Below are positions 2,040 through 27,041 of a DNA stretch of 41,626 nt, one piece after another (positions within the stretch are counted from its first letter, which is position 1; every line of letters starts with the position of its first letter). The notes beneath the pieces were generated by a model, which searched no databases, was not told the origin of the DNA, and was given only the letters and a program-made list of their open reading frames with translations. The DNA is from an uncultured Negativicutes bacterium (GTDB lineage Bacteria; Bacillota; Negativicutes; Acidaminococcales; Acidaminococcaceae). The DNA is taken from assembly GCA_947074185.1 (NCBI GenBank), contig CAMTOO010000009.1, forward strand, positions 1-41,626, in the 5' to 3' direction. A program made the position numbers and the translations under genes.

Positions 2040-3140
2040 ATGAGAAGATATTTGCGTAATACGGATTGGATATTAGTAAGTGCAGTATTAATGCTATCTG
2101 CTATAGGCATTTTGCTGATTGATAGTGCAACTCATTCCTACTCTCAAGTTACTGGGAGTGGCTGGTATACTAATCGCCAAGCTATATTTCTTGCTGTAAA
2201 TATACTTTTAATAATGGTATCTTTGCAGTTTGATTACAAGCTTTTAAATCGTATTGCGATACCTTTATATGTTATAAATATTCTGCTTTTGGTAGCAGTA
2301 ATGTTTGCAGGAAAAACTATTTTAGGTGCACAAAGATGGCTACAGATTGGACCTATTGCTTTTCAACCAAGTGAGTTTTCGAAAGTAATAATGATAATTT
2401 GCCTAGCAGCATTTTTGGAATCTAAGGCAAAATACTTGCATAGTTTTACTGAGTATTTACCAACCTTTGCTGTTGTATTTATACCGTTTTTCTTAGTTCT
2501 AAAACAACCTGACCTTGGAACAGCGCTAGTATTTATTGCTATTTTATTAGCTATATTATTTGTTTCTGGTTTTAGAATAAAATGGTTAGCTTGGGGTGCA
2601 GCTGGATTTGCTGCGTTAACACCGGTGTTTTGGATGTTCTTAAAAGAATATCAAAAAAATAGAATCAGAGTATTTTTAGATCCAGAAAAAGATCCGTTTG
2701 GGGCTGGGTATCACGTTATTCAATCTAAGATTGCTATCGGTAGCGGGATGTTTTCTGGTAAAGGTTTGTTAAATGGGACTCAAAGTCAGCTTAACTTTTT
2801 GCCGGAGAATCATACAGATTTTATTTTTGCAGTAGCTGGTGAAGAATTTGGATTTATTGGTACTTTTATCATATTGCTTTTATATTTAGTAATTATTTGG
2901 AGAGCGCTTACTATTGCTCTTAATGCAGAAGATGATTTTGGAACTTTACTTGCAGTTGGAATAACGGGTATGTTTATGTTCCATGTAATTGTTAATATAG
3001 GTATGACTACTGGTATCATGCCGGTGACGGGTGTACCACTACCGTTTTTAAGTTATGGGGTAAGTTCGCTAACTGCTAATATGATATTGGTGGGGCTATT
3101 ATTAAACATTAATATGAGACGCAAGCAGTTGCAGTTTTAG
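2040..3140 (+). CDS. rodA: SEDS peptidoglycan glycosyltransferase RodA
   Basis: Polytopic SEDS protein that polymerises lipid II into glycan strands for cell elongation, working with the PBP2 encoded just upstream. The start chosen is the ATG right after the mrdA stop, preceded by AAGGAAGGG; it gives 366 residues, and an earlier in-frame start would lie inside mrdA. Visible family marks are about ten hydrophobic segments, KQPDLGTA in the middle, the LPENHTDFIFAV motif containing the catalytic-type Asp at residue 260, and the C-terminal signature GVPLPFLSYG. It could only be confused with FtsW or SpoVE; adjacency to PBP2 favours RodA. Confidence 0.94.
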   Translation: MRRYLRNTDWILVSAVLMLSAIGILLIDSATHSYSQVTGSGWYTNRQAIFLAVNILLIMVSLQFDYKLLNRIAIPLYVINILLLVAVMFAGKTILGAQRWLQIGPIAFQPSEFSKVIMIICLAAFLESKAKYLHSFTEYLPTFAVVFIPFFLVLKQPDLGTALVFIAILLAILFVSGFRIKWLAWGAAGFAALTPVFWMFLKEYQKNRIRVFLDPEKDPFGAGYHVIQSKIAIGSGMFSGKGLLNGTQSQLNFLPENHTDFIFAVAGEEFGFIGTFIILLLYLVIIWRALTIALNAEDDFGTLLAVGITGMFMFHVIVNIGMTTGIMPVTGVPLPFLSYGVSSLTANMILVGLLLNINMRRKQLQF

Positions 3141-19534: not shown

Positions 19535-20553
19535 TGATTGATAAAAAAGAAAGATTTAATGGGAGAAAGCCTAGCGATGGTAAGAGAAGTAGTTTTCCGG
19601 CACGCAGCTCTGCTCCTAAAAAGAATATAGTAGTAACTAACAACACTAGCTTTAGTCCTGGTGATGTAGTTACTTTGAAAGTTGTACGTGTTAATGAAAT
19701 GGGTGCATTCCTTGATGGTCAAACAGGGAATACTTCCGATGATATTTTATTGCACAAATTACAACAAACTTCTCCTGTTGCGGTAGGAGACGATGTAGAA
19801 GTATACCTTTATCTTGACCCTAACAAACGTTTAACGGCAAGCCAGAAGCTTCCTAAGATGCGTGAAGGGCAGTTGGGATACGTTAAAGTAATTCATGTTA
19901 CTAGAGATGGTGGTTTCGTAGATATCGGCGCAGAACGTGGTATTTTTTTACCGTATAGCGAAATGCGTGGTCATGTAAATAAAGACCAAATGGTATGGGC
20001 GAAACTATATCGTGATAAATCTGGTAGACAAGCTGTAACAATGCGTGTTGAAGAAGATTTAGTAAAGGCGTCTAAGCCTGCTGCTGAGGATCTTAAAATA
20101 GGCAGCATGGTTACAGGAACGATATATAATATTTTACCAGAGGGATTTTTTATCTTTACTACAGATCGCAATATTGCATTCTTGCATCGTAGTGAAGCTC
20201 CTCACAAACGTCGTTTAGACTTTGGCGAAAAGTTAGACTTGCGCGTTACTAAAGTGCGTGAAGATGGTAGAATAAATGTTTCTATGCGTGAACAAAAGGA
20301 AAATGCAATGGTTTCTGACTCGCAAGCTATTTTAGATTTATTGAATAATAGAGAAGGCAGAATGCCATATTGTGATGGTACACCAAAAGAAATTATCATG
20401 GAAAAATTTGGTATCAGCAAAGCAGCATTTAAGCGTGCTCTAGGAACATTGATGAAAGAAGGTAAGGTTAAGCAAGAAGACGGTTGGACCTTGCTTCTAG
20501 AAGGAACGGTTGAGCAAGAAGCTGATAAGGACTTGCTTTCAGAAGAAAAATAA
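19534..20553 (+). CDS. cvfB: S1 RNA-binding domain protein, CvfB family
   Basis: A 339-residue protein with tandem S1-like OB folds and a C-terminal winged-helix domain, the layout of CvfB/YitL. After a basic, Ser-rich N-terminus of about 40 residues, S1-like modules begin at about 45 (GDVVTLKVVRVNEMGAFLDG), 113 (GQLGYVKVIHVTRDGGFVDI) and 190 (GSMVTGTIYNILPEGFFIF). The wing (MEKFGISKAAFKRALGTLMK) lies near 290-310. CvfB binds RNA and affects virulence-factor expression in Staphylococcus; its role here is unknown. Start and stop overlap both neighbours, so it is translationally coupled in the operon. Confidence 0.85.
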   Translation: MIDKKERFNGRKPSDGKRSSFPARSSAPKKNIVVTNNTSFSPGDVVTLKVVRVNEMGAFLDGQTGNTSDDILLHKLQQTSPVAVGDDVEVYLYLDPNKRLTASQKLPKMREGQLGYVKVIHVTRDGGFVDIGAERGIFLPYSEMRGHVNKDQMVWAKLYRDKSGRQAVTMRVEEDLVKASKPAAEDLKIGSMVTGTIYNILPEGFFIFTTDRNIAFLHRSEAPHKRRLDFGEKLDLRVTKVREDGRINVSMREQKENAMVSDSQAILDLLNNREGRMPYCDGTPKEIIMEKFGISKAAFKRALGTLMKEGKVKQEDGWTLLLEGTVEQEADKDLLSEEK

Positions 20554-21302
20554 TGGGCGTTTTAGAATTAACATTAGTATCAATAGTAATTATTGCTGCT
20601 TCATTTTTTAATACAGTATCAGGATTTGGTTTTGCTTTAGTAGCTATGCCATTTCTTGCGGAATTAGTAGGACCGAAAGCTGCCGTAGTCTTTATTATGG
20701 TAGCTTCTTCTTGTATGCGAGCAATTATGCTTTGGCGTACACGTAAGGATTTTGAATTTAATATTGTTGCAGTAGCGGCAATGGGTTCACTGATAGGCGT
20801 AGTTCCAGGAACATACTTTTTAAAGGTGATAGATAGCGCAGATTTAAAGATATTTCTTGGAATTGTTCTATTAATTGCAGTGTTTCTGATGAAAAACGAG
20901 TTCAAGTTACCAATAAAAAATATGACTTTAGGAAGATTTTCGGCTGGGGCCTTATGTGGCTTTTTTAGTGCAGCTACTAGTGTTGGTGGACCACCACTTG
21001 CACTATGGTTTGTTAATGAAAATATGTCTAAAGAAAAGATGCGTGGTAATTTAGTTTGGACTTTTGCTTTTAGTGGTATATTTACTTTAATAGGATTATT
21101 TTTAGCTGGTACAACTAATAGTGTTGGTGATTGGACAAATTTATTGTATATCTTACCGAGTATGTTGCTTGGTTTGAAATTAGGTGAAATATTTTTCACT
21201 AAAATAAATAAGCATTTATTTGATCGAATTGTTCTTTTAATAATTTTATTCGGTGCTCTTAGCGCACTGGCAAGCGGTATATTAGCAAAAAATATTTTTT
21301 AA
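20553..21302 (+). CDS. TauE/SafE family membrane transporter
   Basis: A 249-residue integral membrane protein with about eight hydrophobic segments in two related halves. The half-repeat signatures NTVSGFGFALVAMP near residue 22 and GFFSAATSVGGPPLALWF near residue 138 identify the TauE/SafE family, which exports sulfite or organosulfonates and perhaps other small anions. The substrate cannot be told from sequence. It begins within the preceding stop codon (TAATG) without a strong ribosome binding site, so expression is probably coupled to cvfB. Confidence 0.88.
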   Translation: MGVLELTLVSIVIIAASFFNTVSGFGFALVAMPFLAELVGPKAAVVFIMVASSCMRAIMLWRTRKDFEFNIVAVAAMGSLIGVVPGTYFLKVIDSADLKIFLGIVLLIAVFLMKNEFKLPIKNMTLGRFSAGALCGFFSAATSVGGPPLALWFVNENMSKEKMRGNLVWTFAFSGIFTLIGLFLAGTTNSVGDWTNLLYILPSMLLGLKLGEIFFTKINKHLFDRIVLLIILFGALSALASGILAKNIF

Positions 21303-21373: not shown

Positions 21374-21402
21374 TTGACTTTACTTAAACGAAGGTCTAAA
21401 AT
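21374..21402 (+). promoter_or_regulatory. Promoter of the aromatic amino acid operon
   Basis: TTGACT (21374-21379) and TAAAAT (21397-21402) are 17 bases apart. Transcription should start near 21409, leaving a leader of about 270 bases before aroF1 that holds a leader peptide and a terminator. Confidence 0.78.
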
Positions 21403-21440
21403 GACAACAAGTTTTAAAATAATACATATAGGTGGTTATC

Positions 21441-21581
21441 ATGAAATCTGCATTACAGATGAATGTAACAAATGCATATGGTTTTTCTTACCAAAGCTAT
21501 TACTTTTTTAGCTTTGGCTATTTTGCTTGGGAAAATCAAGATGTTAACATTCACGTAAACAGATGCCGATACTGTAGTTGA
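21441..21581 (+). CDS. Aromatic-rich leader peptide (attenuation sensor)
   Basis: A 46-residue frame preceded by the site AGGTGG with good spacing, about 30 bases after the predicted transcription start. Residues 13-30 read YGFSYQSYYFFSFGYFAW: five Tyr (13, 17, 20, 21, 27), five Phe (15, 22, 23, 25, 28) and Trp30, so 11 of 18 residues are aromatic. A terminator lies 26 bases after the stop and the aromatic biosynthesis operon follows. By analogy with the enterobacterial pheL and trpL leaders, ribosome stalling at Tyr/Phe/Trp codons under starvation would prevent termination. Within the RNA, CCAAAGCT (21491-21498) pairs perfectly with AGCTTTGG (21510-21517), and 21461-21470 can pair with 21543-21553. 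The peptide itself probably has no other role. Confidence 0.82.
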   Translation: MKSALQMNVTNAYGFSYQSYYFFSFGYFAWENQDVNIHVNRCRYCS

Positions 21582-21605
21582 TACATGTATTTTATAAACG
21601 CTTTC

Positions 21606-21639
21606 AAGGCGGGCTCTTTTGCGAGAGTCCGCTTTTTTT
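21606..21639 (+). terminator. Attenuator terminator before aroF1
   Basis: GCGGGCTCT (21609-21617) pairs with AGAGTCCGC (21624-21632), nine pairs with one G-U, extended by flanking A-U pairs and followed by seven T (21633-21639). It sits between the leader peptide and aroF1 with no gene end immediately upstream, which points to conditional termination. I could not find one convincing antiterminator by eye; a 4-bp stem at 21599-21611 would compete with the 5' arm. Confidence 0.85.
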
Positions 21640-21678
21640 ATTGATATAAAAAATATAAATATAAAAGGAGATTTTAAA

Positions 21679-22692
21679 ATGGTAATCGTAACAAAACCAG
21701 GTACAAGAAATGAGGACATCTTAAGATTAAGGATGGAAATTGAGTCAAAGGGATTTATTATTCATGAAAGTCGCGGCGAGAACTTCTGCGTTTTAGGTGT
21801 AGTCGGAGACACTGCAAAATGCGATATTAGAAACATCATGGTGCATGAGTTTGTTGAAAAGGTGCTTAGAATTCAAGAACCTTACAAAAAGGCAAATCGC
21901 TTATTCCATCCAGAAGATAGCATTATAGATGTAGCAGGTGTTCCTATTGGTGGGAAAAAAATTCAAGTAATTGCAGGGCCTTGTAGTGTTGAAACAAGAG
22001 ATCAAATAATCTCTGTAGCAGAAGATGTAAAAGCTGCTGGTTCTTTATTATTACGCGGTGGTGCTTACAAACCAAGAACTTCACCATACTCTTTCCAAGG
22101 TTTAGAAGAAGAAGGTTTGGACTTGTTAAAAGAAGCTAGAGCAGCAACTGGTATGCCAATTGTTACTGAAATCATGAGCGTAGATAAATTAGATCGCTTT
22201 GTTGAAGATGTAGATATGATTCAAGTTGGTGCACGTAATATGCAAAACTTCGATTTACTTAAACAATTAGGAAAAACTAATAAACCAATTCTTTTAAAAA
22301 GAGGTTTGTCAGCTACTATTGAAGAATGGGTAATGAGTGCTGAATACATTATGGCAGGCGGTAATAATAATGTTATCCTTTGCGAACGCGGTATTCGTAC
22401 TTTCGAAACTTATACTCGCAACACTTTAGATTTAAGTGCTATTCCAGCAGTTAAGAAAATATCTCATTTACCAGTTGTAGTTGATCCAAGTCATGCAGCA
22501 GGTTTGTGGTGGATGGTAGAACCACTTGCTAAAGCAGCAATTGCCATTGGCGCAGATGGTCTTATTATTGAAGTACATAATGATCCAGAAAATGCTCTTT
22601 GCGATGGAGCACAATCTTTAAAACCAGATCGTTTTGAAAAACTTATGAAATCATTAAAAGTTATTGCAGAAGCAGTAGATAGAACGATATAA
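21679..22692 (+). CDS. aroF: DAHP synthase, type I-beta, first copy
   Basis: 3-deoxy-7-phosphoheptulonate synthase joins phosphoenolpyruvate and erythrose 4-phosphate, the entry step of the shikimate pathway. The start at 21679, after AAAAGGAG, gives 337 residues, exactly the length of the next gene product; an earlier in-frame start would lie inside the terminator. Residues 1 to about 65 form the ferredoxin-like regulatory domain seen in Tyr/Phe-inhibited I-beta enzymes, and the TIM barrel follows with AGPCSVE, GGAYKPRTSP, QVGARNMQNF, LLKRGLSATIEEW and DPSHAAG. By hand count it is about 87% identical to the second copy over residues 85-337, but only about 36% over residues 1-58. Confidence 0.95.
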   Translation: MVIVTKPGTRNEDILRLRMEIESKGFIIHESRGENFCVLGVVGDTAKCDIRNIMVHEFVEKVLRIQEPYKKANRLFHPEDSIIDVAGVPIGGKKIQVIAGPCSVETRDQIISVAEDVKAAGSLLLRGGAYKPRTSPYSFQGLEEEGLDLLKEARAATGMPIVTEIMSVDKLDRFVEDVDMIQVGARNMQNFDLLKQLGKTNKPILLKRGLSATIEEWVMSAEYIMAGGNNNVILCERGIRTFETYTRNTLDLSAIPAVKKISHLPVVVDPSHAAGLWWMVEPLAKAAIAIGADGLIIEVHNDPENALCDGAQSLKPDRFEKLMKSLKVIAEAVDRTI

Positions 22693-22731: not shown

Positions 22732-23745
22732 ATGATTATAGTAATGAAACCAGGTGCACCTGTAGAAGAAAGAGAAAAAATCAAAGAAGGTCTAATAAAA
22801 CAGGGCTTCCAAATTAATGAAATTGTTGGTACTCAAATGGCAGTACTTGGTATTATTGGTGATACTAGTGTTTTAGATATCAACCTTTTACGTGTTAATG
22901 ATTGGGTAGAAAAAGTTATGCGTGTACAAGAACCATTCAAACGCGCTAATCGTGCTTTCCATCCAGATGCAAGTGTTATAAATGTTGCTGGTGTTCCTAT
23001 TGGTGGAGATAAAATTCAAGTAATTGCTGGTCCTTGTAGTGTTGAGTCTAGAGAGCAAATTATCTCTGTAGCACAAGATGTCAAAGCTGCTGGTGCTCAC
23101 CTTTTACGTGGTGGTGCATTCAAACCTAGAACTTCTCCATATGCATTTCAAGGCTTAAAAGAAGAAGGTCTTGATTTGTTAAAAGAAGCAAAAGCTGCAA
23201 CCGGTATGCCTATTGTTACTGAAATCATGAGTGCTGATAAAATAGATCGTTTTGTTGAAGATGTAGATTTGATTCAAGTTGGTGCCCGTAATATGCAAAA
23301 CTTTGAATTATTAAAAGAATTAGGAAAAATCAATACGCCAATTCTTTTAAAACGTGGCTTATCTGCTACTATTGAAGAATGGGTAATGAGCGCAGAATAC
23401 ATTATGGCAGGTGGAAATAGCAATGTTATTCTTTGTGAACGTGGTATTCGTACTTTCGAAACTTACACTCGTAATACTTTAGATTTAAGTGCAATTTGCG
23501 CAGCTAAGAAAATGAGTCATTTACCAGTTGTAGTTGATCCAAGTCATGCGGCAGGTTTATGGTGGATGGTAGAACCACTTGCTAAAGCAGCAGTGGCAGC
23601 AGGCGCAGATGGTCTTATTATCGAAGTTCATAATGATCCGGAAAATGCTCTTTGCGATGGTGCGCAATCTTTAAAACCAGATCGTTTCGCACAACTTATG
23701 AAGGAATTAAAAGGCATTGCAAACATTGTAGGCAGAGATGTGTAA
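22732..23745 (+). CDS. aroF: DAHP synthase, type I-beta, second copy
   Basis: Tandem paralogue of the upstream DAHP synthase, also 337 residues, with its own good ribosome binding site AAGGAG. All catalytic-barrel motifs are kept (AGPCSVE, GGAFKPRTSP, VGARNMQNF, LLKRGLSATIEEW, CERGIRTFETYTRNTLD, DPSHAAG), so it should be active. The N-terminal regulatory domain differs at most positions. The natural reading is a recent duplication in which the barrel stayed the same while the inhibitor-sensing domain changed, giving isozymes with different feedback effectors. Recent gene conversion restricted to the barrel would give the same pattern. Confidence 0.95.
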   Translation: MIIVMKPGAPVEEREKIKEGLIKQGFQINEIVGTQMAVLGIIGDTSVLDINLLRVNDWVEKVMRVQEPFKRANRAFHPDASVINVAGVPIGGDKIQVIAGPCSVESREQIISVAQDVKAAGAHLLRGGAFKPRTSPYAFQGLKEEGLDLLKEAKAATGMPIVTEIMSADKIDRFVEDVDLIQVGARNMQNFELLKELGKINTPILLKRGLSATIEEWVMSAEYIMAGGNSNVILCERGIRTFETYTRNTLDLSAICAAKKMSHLPVVVDPSHAAGLWWMVEPLAKAAVAAGADGLIIEVHNDPENALCDGAQSLKPDRFAQLMKELKGIANIVGRDV

Positions 23746-23785: not shown

Positions 23786-24661
23786 ATGGAAAGTGGTTTT
23801 AAGGACACTCAAATAGAAGATTTAACTTTTGCAATTATTGGCATGGGACTTATTGGAGGCTCTTATGCCAAGGCTTTGCGAAAACTTAAAGTTAAAAAGA
23901 TTTTAGGGATGGATATTAGTCATGGTATTTTAAAAGCTTGTCTTAATTCACACCTAATAGATGATATGGTTGAGGAAGAAAATAGACAAATATTGTCTAC
24001 TGCAGATGTAGTTATTTGCTGCGTATATCCTAGCGATATAGTTGATTTTGTGAAAGCAAATAAAGAACATTTGAAACCAGGTGTATTAATTACAGATGCA
24101 ACTGGTATAAAAGGTGATATGTCTGAAAAAATTCAAGCAGAATTACCACAAGGTTGTGAATTTATTGCTGGACATCCTATGGCAGGAAGACAAGGAAGTG
24201 GGCTTGCTATGGCGGCTGCAGAAATCTTTGATGGTTCTAACTACATTATTGTTCCTGCAAGTCACAATACAGAAGCTGCTATTGTTTGGCTTGAAGAGTT
24301 TGCAGCAACTTTAGGTTCTAAAGCGGTAGTTCAAGTTAATGCGAAAGAACATGATGAAATAATTGCTTATACTAGTAATTTGCCACATGTCTTAGCAGTA
24401 GCGCTAGTAAATAGTGCTTCTTACGATGATAATACTAAGTATTTTATTGCAGGTAGTTTCAAAGACGGAACTCGTGTTGCAGATATCAACCCAGAGTTAT
24501 GGAGCGATTTATTCTTATCTAATAGAGAAAATGTTGTCATTGAAATAGAAAAGTATAAACAACAATTAGATAAATGGTGTAAAGCTCTTAAAGAAAATGA
24601 TGCGGAAGCTCTAAAAGATATGATGAAAGAAGCTTCTGTTAAAAGACGAGAATTATATTAA
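23786..24661 (+). CDS. tyrA: Prephenate dehydrogenase
   Basis: NAD-dependent oxidative decarboxylation of prephenate to 4-hydroxyphenylpyruvate, the tyrosine branch. The 291 residues begin with a Rossmann motif (IIGMGLIGGSYAKAL, about residues 17-31), followed by the catalytic region GHPMAGRQGSG and the helical dimerisation domain with SNLPHVLAVAL. There is no C-terminal ACT domain at this length, so direct feedback by Tyr through ACT is not expected. Preceded by GGAAGGTAGG. Confidence 0.93.
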   Translation: MESGFKDTQIEDLTFAIIGMGLIGGSYAKALRKLKVKKILGMDISHGILKACLNSHLIDDMVEEENRQILSTADVVICCVYPSDIVDFVKANKEHLKPGVLITDATGIKGDMSEKIQAELPQGCEFIAGHPMAGRQGSGLAMAAAEIFDGSNYIIVPASHNTEAAIVWLEEFAATLGSKAVVQVNAKEHDEIIAYTSNLPHVLAVALVNSASYDDNTKYFIAGSFKDGTRVADINPELWSDLFLSNRENVVIEIEKYKQQLDKWCKALKENDAEALKDMMKEASVKRRELY

Positions 24662-24681
24662 GACTGAGAGAGGAAATGATT

Positions 24682-25740
24682 ATGCGTAAAGTACACGTTG
24701 ACTTAGGTAGTAAAAGTTATGATATTGAAATAAAAAATACTATCCTAGATGAAGTGGGTAAAAAATTGCGTGAGCTTTCAAAAGCAGAAGCAGCAGTTAT
24801 TGTTACTGATAGTAATGTTGGTCCTTTGTATGCTCAGCGCTTAAATGATTCTCTGACTAAAGAAGGTTTTAAAGTAAGTGTTATCACTTTCCCTGCAGGC
24901 GAAGAAAGTAAGAATATCAACGTTTTAAATGATATTTATAATAAAATGGCAGAAGCAGGTATTACTAGAGGTGATGTTTTAGTTGCTTTAGGTGGTGGTG
25001 TTACAGGAGATATGGCAGGGCTTGCAGCTGCAACATTCCTTAGAGGAATTGATTTTGTGCAAGTGCCAACAACTCTTTTGGCGCAAATTGATAGCAGTGT
25101 TGGTGGTAAAGTAGCGATAGATTTACCTGCTGGGAAAAACTTAGTAGGTGCTTTTTATCAACCAAAAGCTGTTTATATTGATCCAGAATTATTAAGTACT
25201 TTATCAGATAGATTCTTATATGATGGTATGGCAGAAACTATTAAATACGGTTGTATTAAAGATAGTAATTTATTTGCAATGCTTGAAGGCTATCAAGATA
25301 AAGAAGAACTTTTAGAAAACATTGCAGAGATAATTGAACTTTGTTGCAATATAAAAGCCCGTATCGTAGAAGAAGATGAGTTTGATACAGGCTTACGCAT
25401 GATTTTAAACTTTGGTCATACTTTAGGTCATGCAGTAGAGAAGAAATTCAACTATACCACTTATACGCATGGTGAAGGCGTGGCAGTAGGCATGGCGATG
25501 CTAACTGCTAAATCAGAAGCTATTGGTATTGCAAAAGCTGGTACAAGTGAACGCTTGAATAAACTTTTGGTGAAATATAAATTGCCTTTGGTTGCAGAAA
25601 TGAAAACGGAAGATTTTATTGCTGCAATTAAATTAGACAAGAAAAAAGCAGGTAGTAGTTTAACTTTAGTTTTAATTAAAGATATAGGAACTAGTATTTT
25701 GCAAAAAATAGATTTCAAGGATTTGGAGAATTATCTATGA
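24682..25740 (+). CDS. aroB: 3-dehydroquinate synthase
   Basis: Converts DAHP to 3-dehydroquinate with catalytic NAD and a divalent metal. I chose the ATG at 24682, seven bases after AGAGAGG; an ATG at 24676 is too close to that site. The product has 352 residues with GGGVTGDMAGLAAATFLRG, VPTTLLAQIDSSVGGK, and metal-ligand region NFGHTLGHAVE and HGEGVAVGMAMA-like segment. Its last four bases overlap the aroA start (ATGA). Confidence 0.95.
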   Translation: MRKVHVDLGSKSYDIEIKNTILDEVGKKLRELSKAEAAVIVTDSNVGPLYAQRLNDSLTKEGFKVSVITFPAGEESKNINVLNDIYNKMAEAGITRGDVLVALGGGVTGDMAGLAAATFLRGIDFVQVPTTLLAQIDSSVGGKVAIDLPAGKNLVGAFYQPKAVYIDPELLSTLSDRFLYDGMAETIKYGCIKDSNLFAMLEGYQDKEELLENIAEIIELCCNIKARIVEEDEFDTGLRMILNFGHTLGHAVEKKFNYTTYTHGEGVAVGMAMLTAKSEAIGIAKAGTSERLNKLLVKYKLPLVAEMKTEDFIAAIKLDKKKAGSSLTLVLIKDIGTSILQKIDFKDLENYL

Positions 25741-27041
25741 CGACTTTAAAAATATCACCTGTGAAGCTTAAAGGAACAGTGCAAATTCCATCATCCAAAA
25801 GTATGGGGCATAGAGAAATTATTTGTTCTGGTTTAGCAGCAGGCATAAGTATAGTTGATAATATAGCGATATCTGAAGATATAAAAGCGACTAATCGTTG
25901 TTTAGAAGCGTTAGGTGTTAAAGTGAGTGAGGTAGTTTCTAACTTTAATAATCGTTGCGCTTTTAAGTATGAAACAGGAACAGAACTTCAAGTAGCAAAG
26001 AAAGAAGTAGATTGTAATGAATCTGGATCTACTTTGCGTTTCTTTATTCCCTTAGGTGCTTTATGTAATTCGGAAATAACCTTTACTGGTAAAGGTAAAT
26101 TAGTTTCGCGTCCGCTAAATGCTTATTATGATATTTTTGATGAACAAAACTTAACTTATAAAACAGCAGCAGAAGGACATTTACCTCTAACAATAAATGG
26201 AAAACTAAAGCCAGGTCATTATAAATTACCAGGCAATGTTAGTTCCCAATTTGTATCAGGTTTAATGTTCGCCTTGCCGTTATTAGCGGAAGATTCTATT
26301 CTTGAAATTCTGCCGCCTATTGAATCAGAAAGTTATATTGATTTAACAAAAGAAGCATTAGGTCGTTATGGAATCAAGCTAGAACTTTTAGCGTCGCACA
26401 AATATTTAATTCCTGGTGGGCAAAGTTATAAAGCAAGTGGCAGAGCTATAGTAGAAGGTGACTGGTCACAAGCAGCATTTTGGTTTGTAGCAGGCAGTTT
26501 AAATGAAAAGATTACTTGCTTAGGGTTAGACAAAAACTCTTTGCAGGGTGATAAAGTAGTTGCTGATATTGTTAATCGTATGGGTGGTAAAGTAACTGTT
26601 CCAACTAGCGATGAAGGTTATATCGTAAATCCAAGTGCTACAAAAGAAACTATTATTGACGCTACCGATTGTCCTGATATAATTCCTGTACTTACAGTGC
26701 TTGCTGCAGTAAGTGAAGGCACGACTAAAATAATTAACGCAGGTAGATTGCGTATTAAAGAATGTGATCGCTTGGCAGCAACTACTTCTGAACTTAATAA
26801 ACTTGGTGCTGAGGTAGAAGAATTGGCAGAAGGTTTAATTGTTAAAGGCAAACCAGAAGGCTTGCAAGGCGGCGCAACAGTAGATGCTTGGAATGATCAC
26901 CGCATTGCTATGAGTCTTGCTATAGCAGCAACAGTTTGTAAGGAACCGATTATTTTGACAGGTGCTGAAAGTGTAAGTAAATCTTATCCGGAATTTTGGC
27001 AAGATTATTTAGCACTTGGTGGAGTTTTTGAAAAGGTGTAG
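25737..27041 (+). CDS. aroA: EPSP synthase (3-phosphoshikimate 1-carboxyvinyltransferase)
   Basis: Adds the enolpyruvyl group of PEP to shikimate 3-phosphate. The 434 residues contain recognisable but clostridial-style versions of the family motifs: IPSSKSMGHREII near residue 18, CNESGSTLRFFIP near residue 97 where many enzymes have GNAGTAMR, GNVSSQFVSGL near 168, DWSQAAFW, RIKECDRLAAT and DHRIAMSLA. The catalytic Lys and Arg/Asp positions are present, so it should be active. The altered glycine-rich motif is at the site that affects glyphosate binding, so sensitivity cannot be assumed. Translationally coupled to aroB. Confidence 0.94.
   Translation: MTTLKISPVKLKGTVQIPSSKSMGHREIICSGLAAGISIVDNIAISEDIKATNRCLEALGVKVSEVVSNFNNRCAFKYETGTELQVAKKEVDCNESGSTLRFFIPLGALCNSEITFTGKGKLVSRPLNAYYDIFDEQNLTYKTAAEGHLPLTINGKLKPGHYKLPGNVSSQFVSGLMFALPLLAEDSILEILPPIESESYIDLTKEALGRYGIKLELLASHKYLIPGGQSYKASGRAIVEGDWSQAAFWFVAGSLNEKITCLGLDKNSLQGDKVVADIVNRMGGKVTVPTSDEGYIVNPSATKETIIDATDCPDIIPVLTVLAAVSEGTTKIINAGRLRIKECDRLAATTSELNKLGAEVEELAEGLIVKGKPEGLQGGATVDAWNDHRIAMSLAIAATVCKEPIILTGAESVSKSYPEFWQDYLALGGVFEKV

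Follow-up and report, generated by a model that had tools for sequence, protein, structure and literature searches.

Leader-peptide attenuation of biosynthetic operons is classical: in the trp, pheA, pheST and his attenuators of enteric bacteria a short open reading frame (ORF) rich in end-product codons is combined with mutually exclusive 1:2, 2:3 and 3:4 pairings, and a terminator stands before the operon. The leader described here comes from a stretch of 41,626 nucleotides (the window) of an uncultured Negativicutes bacterium of the Acidaminococcaceae, and in a comparison made through Rfam it is like the enteric attenuators in its ORF of end-product codons, in the exclusive pairings and in the terminator before the operon. 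It differs from them in that its region 1 is formed by the first codons and precedes the control codons, in that these control codons are placed inside a rod with its own apical hairpin, and in that it precedes an aroF-type operon in Acidaminococcaceae and has no Rfam match at threshold. No Rfam 15 family reached its gathering score in the window, where the best sub-threshold hit was L20_leader (24.8 versus 58.7 bits); a T-box leader (RF00230), considered as an explanation of the window leader, gave no match at threshold. Among the loci of 20 relatives no Rfam 15 match fell on the leaders, and three matches were located elsewhere (T-boxes in L030 and L060, cobalamin in L071). On the single contig of L060 a T-box (286-521) precedes a DAHP synthase gene at 580, and an aromatic leader peptide precedes the copy at 3001.

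Candidate leaders of comparable kind are already in print. The uORFC-13-1 motif (PMC8632094) is described upstream of aroF (DAHP synthase) as an upstream ORF that contains one or more Phe codons and immediately precedes a terminator; attenuation was proposed and a further base-paired substructure mentioned, the motif being given there for the genus Acholeplasma and environmental DNA only (24 sequences). Unlike in the model presented here, a partner exchange with the terminator is not spelled out in that description. In view of three loci with our leader that bear an Acholeplasmataceae label (L009-L011), uORFC-13-1 and our leader may be the same element. Two candidate upstream ORFs of shikimate genes with Phe/Tyr codons (PMC6429828, Fig. 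6b) share with our leader an ORF of Phe and Tyr codons before shikimate genes, and may represent the Clostridium form of the element. The His leader peptides and attenuators of Firmicutes (PMC2965389, PMC9413887), as outlined in these sources, share the leader-peptide attenuation and differ in the regulated genes, which are those of histidine. In the literature as covered by titles and the openings of abstracts, with few subscription papers, we did not recognise a description of this three-way pairing in the DAHP synthase leaders of Negativicutes or Clostridium. Taken together, this looks like an attenuator type that is already known, with candidate leaders published and a classical mechanism.

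The leader ORF and the aromatic operon

All features given here are on the forward strand. The source genome of the window has 1.57 Mb and is the only one of its genus in the sample. A sigma-70-like promoter (TTGACT-17-TAAAAT, 21374-21402), predicted from its consensus match in 10 of 12 positions, is followed by the Shine-Dalgarno sequence AGGTGG (21430-21435; nearly every aligned relative has AGGTG or GGCG) and by the leader ORF of 46 codons and a TGA (21441-21581), the same kind of leader being found in relatives. Its peptide, MKSALQMNVTNAYGFSYQSYYFFSFGYFAWENQDVNIHVNRCRYCS, gave no match in Pfam or NCBIfam. This short translatable ORF clusters codons for the end product of its operon: it contains 12 aromatic codons (Tyr 6, Phe 5, Trp 1), of which 11 fall in the aromatic control-codon run at 21477-21530. 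The claim of the initial annotation that the loop of the long-range pairing encloses all aromatic codons is thereby true for 11 of the 12, one Tyr codon (21570-21572) lying outside. The similarity of the leader peptides exceeds Tyr and Phe, and from Acidaminococcaceae to Clostridium FS.GYF, then C or W, then K is often found.

An intrinsic terminator (21606-21639; a stem of 13 bp at 21606-21635 and a T run at 21633-21639) sits between the leader ORF and the first DAHP synthase gene, and its arms covary in relatives (z -8.4, 25 representatives). The genes behind it encode DAHP synthase (21679-22692), a second DAHP synthase 77% identical to the first (22732-23745), a tyrA-like prephenate dehydrogenase (23786-24661), 3-dehydroquinate synthase (aroB, 24676-25740) and EPSP synthase (aroA, 25737-27041). 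The tandem DAHP synthase copies stand in one operon in the window and were also seen in several relatives. Upstream of the leader, on the same strand, there is a gene of the TauE/SafE-type sulfite exporter family (20553-21302).

By the rule of at least 6 aromatics in 14 codons, 51 of the 59 Acidaminococcaceae genomes have such a leader, the loci having been assigned to genomes by the analyst; the 51 consist of 50 aligned leaders and of L137 (genome G036), which was recognised by eye. In the other eight genomes contig ends intervened (G032, G055), or the copy with upstream DNA followed a copy cut by the contig end (G030), or only remote or fragmentary hits were obtained (G029, G033, G039, G040, G041). 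By a stricter rule (at least 7 aromatics and a terminator) the leader was present at 61 of 80 loci, these 80 being the best of 571 relatives and overlapping with the 59 genomes in some cases; the 19 loci without a leader by this rule include L046, with only 27 bases upstream. The starting set comprised 129 distinct upstream regions, from which the 50 Acidaminococcaceae leaders were aligned. Fourteen upstream regions of the family without a leader by the rule were omitted; the majority precede a second gene copy, and one of them, L087, comprises only 113 bases (its leader is in L137). The second copy of the window itself was omitted as well. The truncated leaders L092 and L098 were left out of the region 1 tests, and L136, having no aligned start, out of the codon-shuffle and ribosome-fold tests. 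The Firmicutes-wide set retained 87 of the 129 regions, 42 being dropped for fewer than 7 aromatics in 14 codons, for a missing terminator or for insufficient length.

The same layout in other letters was detected upstream of DAHP synthase genes in Clostridium, Pelosinus and others. Three loci labelled as Acholeplasmataceae metagenome-assembled genomes (L009, L010, L011) carry a DAHP synthase 72-73% identical to that of the window and the same kind of leader; these labels look doubtful, and this may matter for the uORFC-13-1 motif reported from Acholeplasma. By eye, the leader and apical hairpin (CCAAAG.UAUUGG...UUUAGCUUUGG) of the Acetobacterium-like loci L059, L071 and L077 closely resemble the Acidaminococcaceae form despite the distant taxonomy, a hint that transfer may have occurred.

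The rod and its conservation in relatives

In the predicted fold the leader ORF forms a single rod made up of an outer helix, an inner helix, a middle stem and an apical hairpin. The inner helix is the long-range pairing of 6 plus 4 base pairs with one bulged A that had been drawn in the initial annotation: it is present, predicted and conserved, with the correction that its 3' strand occupies 21542-21552 and not 21543-21553. In it GAAUGUAACA (21461-21470, the inner part of region 1) is paired with UGUUAACAUUC through Watson-Crick pairs only (GAAUGU:ACAUUC and AACA:UGUU); when 21409-21640 is folded, the 6-bp part has a probability of 0.93 and the 4-bp part one of 0.45. The pairing belongs to a longer helix, whose outer half had been missed: the outer part of region 1 (21446-21456) consists of AUCUG (21446-21450) and UUAC (21453-21456), which pair in the same segment with CAGAU (21560-21564; probability 0.88) and GUAA (21555-21558; 0.87) of region 2. 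The perfect internal hairpin noted within the loop was found as described, with 9 bp at 21491-21517, a probability of 0.99 and Tyr/Phe codons in its loop.

Taken from the window itself, the evidence for the rod is moderate, and the relatives carry the weight. Minimum free energy folding of 21409-21640, a check suggested in the initial annotation, gave -59.1 kcal/mol (z -3.31), and 1 of 200 shuffles was as good. The duplex of 21441-21470 with 21536-21569 had -16.0 kcal/mol, where dinucleotide shuffles gave -8.0 +/- 3.1 and were as good in 8 of 500 cases; with a broader choice of strands the duplex in the window was unexceptional (z -0.61), and peptide-preserving codon shuffles of the window were as good in 15 of 100 cases, which is not significant.

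RNAalifold, run on a MAFFT alignment of 38 leaders, returned the terminator and a 3-bp stem and no rod, probably because indels shift the register. Since the registers differ between genera, alignment-free tests were used, in which the strands of a leader were paired with their own partners or with swapped ones. For the inner strands of 48 Acidaminococcaceae leaders the energies were -9.58 kcal/mol (own) and -5.94 kcal/mol (swapped), with z -10.7 for these leaders and -6.8 for 23 representatives (leaders under 70% identity), 0 of 20000 in each set. The outer strands gave z -9.1 (48 leaders) and -5.0 (23 representatives), the apical hairpin -9.4 (50 leaders) and -6.3 (25 representatives), again with 0 of 20000 in each case, and the middle stem -9.8 (48 leaders) and -5.9 (23 representatives). 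In an earlier test of the 1:2 pairing in the family, made with other cuts, the corresponding counts were 0 of 5000 (all 46 leaders), 9 of 5000 (22 representatives) and 85 of 5000 (19 representatives at less than 60% identity), so that the support drops with stricter thinning. When the peptide was preserved, 41 of 47 leaders folded better than shuffles with pooled synonyms (mean z -1.79), and 43 of 47 better than shuffles with codons permuted inside the leader (mean z -1.89).

The search for covariation in homologous leaders, likewise suggested at the outset, revealed that the letters of the inner helix can be fully replaced with retention of the pairing. GAAUGU:ACAUUC of the window stands beside GGGUA:UUACC (L084), AACUGC:GCAGUU (L094) and GAAUUGGA:UCUAAUUC (L099), and within one genus UUCCAUG:CAUGGAA (L114) beside UUCUAUG:CAUAGAA (L121).

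Region 2 and its alternative partners

After the inner 3' strand lies region 2, CGUAAACAGAUGCC (21554-21567), which can pair alternatively with region 1 or with region 3, GGCUCUUUUGCG (21612-21623), the latter comprising the 5' arm and loop of the terminator. The 2:3 pairing has 12 bp (CGUAAA:UUUGCG, AGA:UCU and GCC:GGC) with two single-base bulges, and its probability is 0.96-1.00 in the transcript to 21623; region 2 is likely the antiterminator strand. Its motif, CGUAA(A)CAGAUGCC, is kept at the RNA level: in the window it is read in frame as VNRCR, in several other genera it lies beyond the stop codon, and it is retained despite a change of frame (by eye) or a position past the stop codon. 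In Acidaminococcaceae region 2 CGUAA.AGA.GCC goes with GGC.UCU.UUACG in the terminator arm. In Clostridium region 2 is CUAAUGAG, found by eye to be read in either of two frames (as SNE or as LMS), and is matched by CUCAUUAG in the terminator arm; Pelosinus L021 has AAAUGAG with the arm CUCAUUU, L060 has UAAGGGAU with GUCCUUUG, and L050, by eye, AAAGGA with UCCUUU as 2:3 partners. It was also observed by eye that in Clostridium leaders such as L022 and L033 the codons near the start (IIRKG/LIRKG) spell AUCAUUAG or CUUAUUAG, which are nearly identical to the terminator arm CUCAUUAG, and therefore region 1 imitates region 3 in this genus.

The protector (1:2) pairing excludes the antiterminator and is conserved; the antiterminator (2:3) pairing excludes the terminator and is conserved across Firmicutes. 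Own partners were superior to swapped ones both for 1:2 (z -18.6 in 87 leaders, -9.1 in 20 Firmicutes representatives) and for 2:3 (-9.0 and -4.7, with 0 of 20000 in each set), whereas the control 1:3, where no pairing is expected, was flat (+0.5 in 87 leaders, +0.7 in 20 representatives). Dinucleotide shuffles within each of the 87 leaders gave a mean z of -2.31 for 1:2, -1.45 for 2:3 and +0.04 for the 1:3 control, with p<=0.05 in 62, 32 and 8 leaders, respectively. Within the Acidaminococcaceae alone 2:3 had no significant advantage of own partners (8 representatives, 2557 of 20000), because 2:3 hardly varies there; other tests in the family gave 144 of 2000 and 479-1291 of 5000, with imperfect cuts of region 3.

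Two further pairings had been proposed downstream of the rod. Six pairs between CUUGGG (21526-21531) and UUCAAG (21603-21608) can indeed be drawn, two of them G-U, but their probability was 0.00 in all eight transcripts that were long enough, and own partners brought no advantage (z +0.8 in 48 leaders, 15480 of 20000; +1.1 in 23 representatives, 17383 of 20000), so this pairing was rejected as an antiterminator. The small stem at 21599-21611 (CGCUU/AGGCG, 5 bp), which overlaps the foot of the terminator, is predicted as a transient structure, with a probability of 0.87-0.90 in transcripts ending at 21612-21628 and at most 0.01 from 21632 on. Support for it across the family is weak: apart from lookalikes in three g14 leaders (L086, L088, L092), it gave z -2.9 in 50 leaders (38 of 20000) but -0.5 in 25 representatives (6438 of 20000), and was rejected as a family-wide element.

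The proposed attenuator and the alternatives

We propose, with a probability of about 0.8, that this element is a ribosome-mediated transcription attenuator of the aroF-aroF-tyrA-aroB-aroA operon, responding to Tyr/Phe (charged tRNA). The RNA of the Tyr/Phe-rich leader would probably stop transcription unless a ribosome stalls for want of Tyr or Phe. The first codons of the leader (region 1) would pair with its last codons (region 2), with the Tyr/Phe codons and the apical hairpin in the upper part of the rod. As long as region 2 is held by region 1, as also in the untranslated, folded rod, the terminator would be free to form; the same would follow when a ribosome reads through to the stop codon and covers region 2. 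A stall on the Tyr/Phe codons would open the rod and leave region 2 unpaired, which could then grab the 5' arm and loop of the terminator before the 3' arm exists, and transcription would continue. The pairings, their mutual exclusion and their conservation in relatives were computed directly; stalling, its timing, the read-through and Tyr/Phe as the signal are what we infer from them.

Folding was predicted for the window at increasing transcript length. The 1:2 pairing is present up to 21620, with only GCC:GGC of 2:3, then 2:3 appears at 21623-21628, 1:2 returns at 21632, and the terminator reaches 0.95 from 21636. In masked folding of the window 2:3 was abolished once the A site of the ribosome reached 21552; with the ribosome at the stop codon, 40 of 47 leaders had region 2 overlapped by its footprint, and in 5 of 47 the 2:3 pairing was still above 0.4. 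Other results argue against reading the model too simply. At equilibrium and with the terminator complete, all 47 leaders had the terminator at more than 0.4 and none had 2:3 at that level, whether or not a ribosome was placed on the core; the finished terminator thus wins at equilibrium and the control must be kinetic, decided during RNA synthesis. Ribosome-free window RNA cut at 21623 also favours 2:3 (0.77 with region 2 taken as 21555-21568, and 0.84), therefore the folding model cannot separate an absent ribosome from a stalled one, and the protector role of 1:2 depends on its forming earlier. Prior to the synthesis of region 3, 1:2 exceeded 0.4 in only 18 of 47 leaders; with a ribosome on the core, 2:3 did so in only 22 of 47 and 1:2 in 16 of 47. 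By the assumed footprint, a ribosome held at the first Tyr codon (A site 21477) would cover the inner strand of region 1, one at the first Phe codon (21483) a part of it and those at later codons none, while the outer strand is uncovered by a stall at any Tyr/Phe codon. Ribosomes stalled at later Tyr/Phe codons would accordingly leave region 1 exposed behind them; queued ribosomes, or the bulk of a ribosome inside the rod, are possibilities by which later stalls could keep region 1 from region 2.

The general idea of the initial annotation, a 1:2-type pause and protector element around the Tyr/Phe codons, is supported by the covariation in relatives, but the key strand is probably another one, namely region 2 (21554-21567) instead of 21542-21552. 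In its specific form, where a stall frees 21542-21552 and CUUGGG:UUCAAG acts as the competitor, it has next to no chance of being correct: both pairings can be drawn and the inner helix is conserved, but the competitor had zero probability and no advantage of own partners, and 2:3 accounts better for the terminator arm. In addition, the 6-bp inner helix is predicted to persist when 2:3 is formed (0.91 in the transcript to 21623, 0.41 to 21628), therefore opening that helix alone does not free the antiterminator strand. It is very improbable that repeated codons and an AT-rich composition produce the pairing as a by-product, with only the leader peptide and the terminator being of importance. 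The missing rod in RNAalifold and the two weak tests of the window alone would fit such a by-product, but the own-versus-swapped and shuffle tests on relatives, with their flat control, and the peptide-preserving shuffles speak against it.

Two other explanations leave the RNA pairings in place and concern what is sensed. An arrest peptide, the nascent chain of which would stall the ribosome in response to free Phe, Tyr or another ligand with the RNA switch unchanged, could explain why the peptides are alike beyond Tyr and Phe from Acidaminococcaceae to Clostridium; we consider it improbable, since much of the similar stretch lies in RNA stems supported by the own-partner tests, which also fix codons, since tRNA limitation would make use of just such runs of Tyr/Phe codons, and since arrest by plenty would presumably act in the wrong direction for a biosynthetic operon. 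There is a small chance that the 1:2 rod chiefly senses the translation of the leader as such, its rate or initiation, with the Tyr/Phe codons being secondary: region 1 is located in the first codons, where a ribosome sits on initiation or in a queue, and its outer part is the one that the assumed footprint of a Tyr/Phe stall leaves uncovered, but the dense Tyr/Phe codons and the aromatic operon would otherwise be hard to explain. The reading as a Tyr/Phe-sensing attenuator remains the preferred one. Only tentatively can it be suggested that a single ancient attenuator design extends over Negativicutes, Clostridia and other Firmicutes, with a rod leader, a region 2 choosing between the start-proximal strand and the terminator arm, pairing letters replaced wholesale in each lineage, and a response both to leader translation and to Tyr/Phe supply.

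A leader RNA that recurs widely and has no Rfam 15 family in the window and in the loci of 20 relatives would be useful for annotation. The element would also be useful for the study of attenuator evolution, as one RNA must both encode the peptide and switch folds. It offers a testable three-strand model, together with natural compensatory variants from different genera, of how Acidaminococcaceae and clostridia control the initial step of aromatic synthesis.
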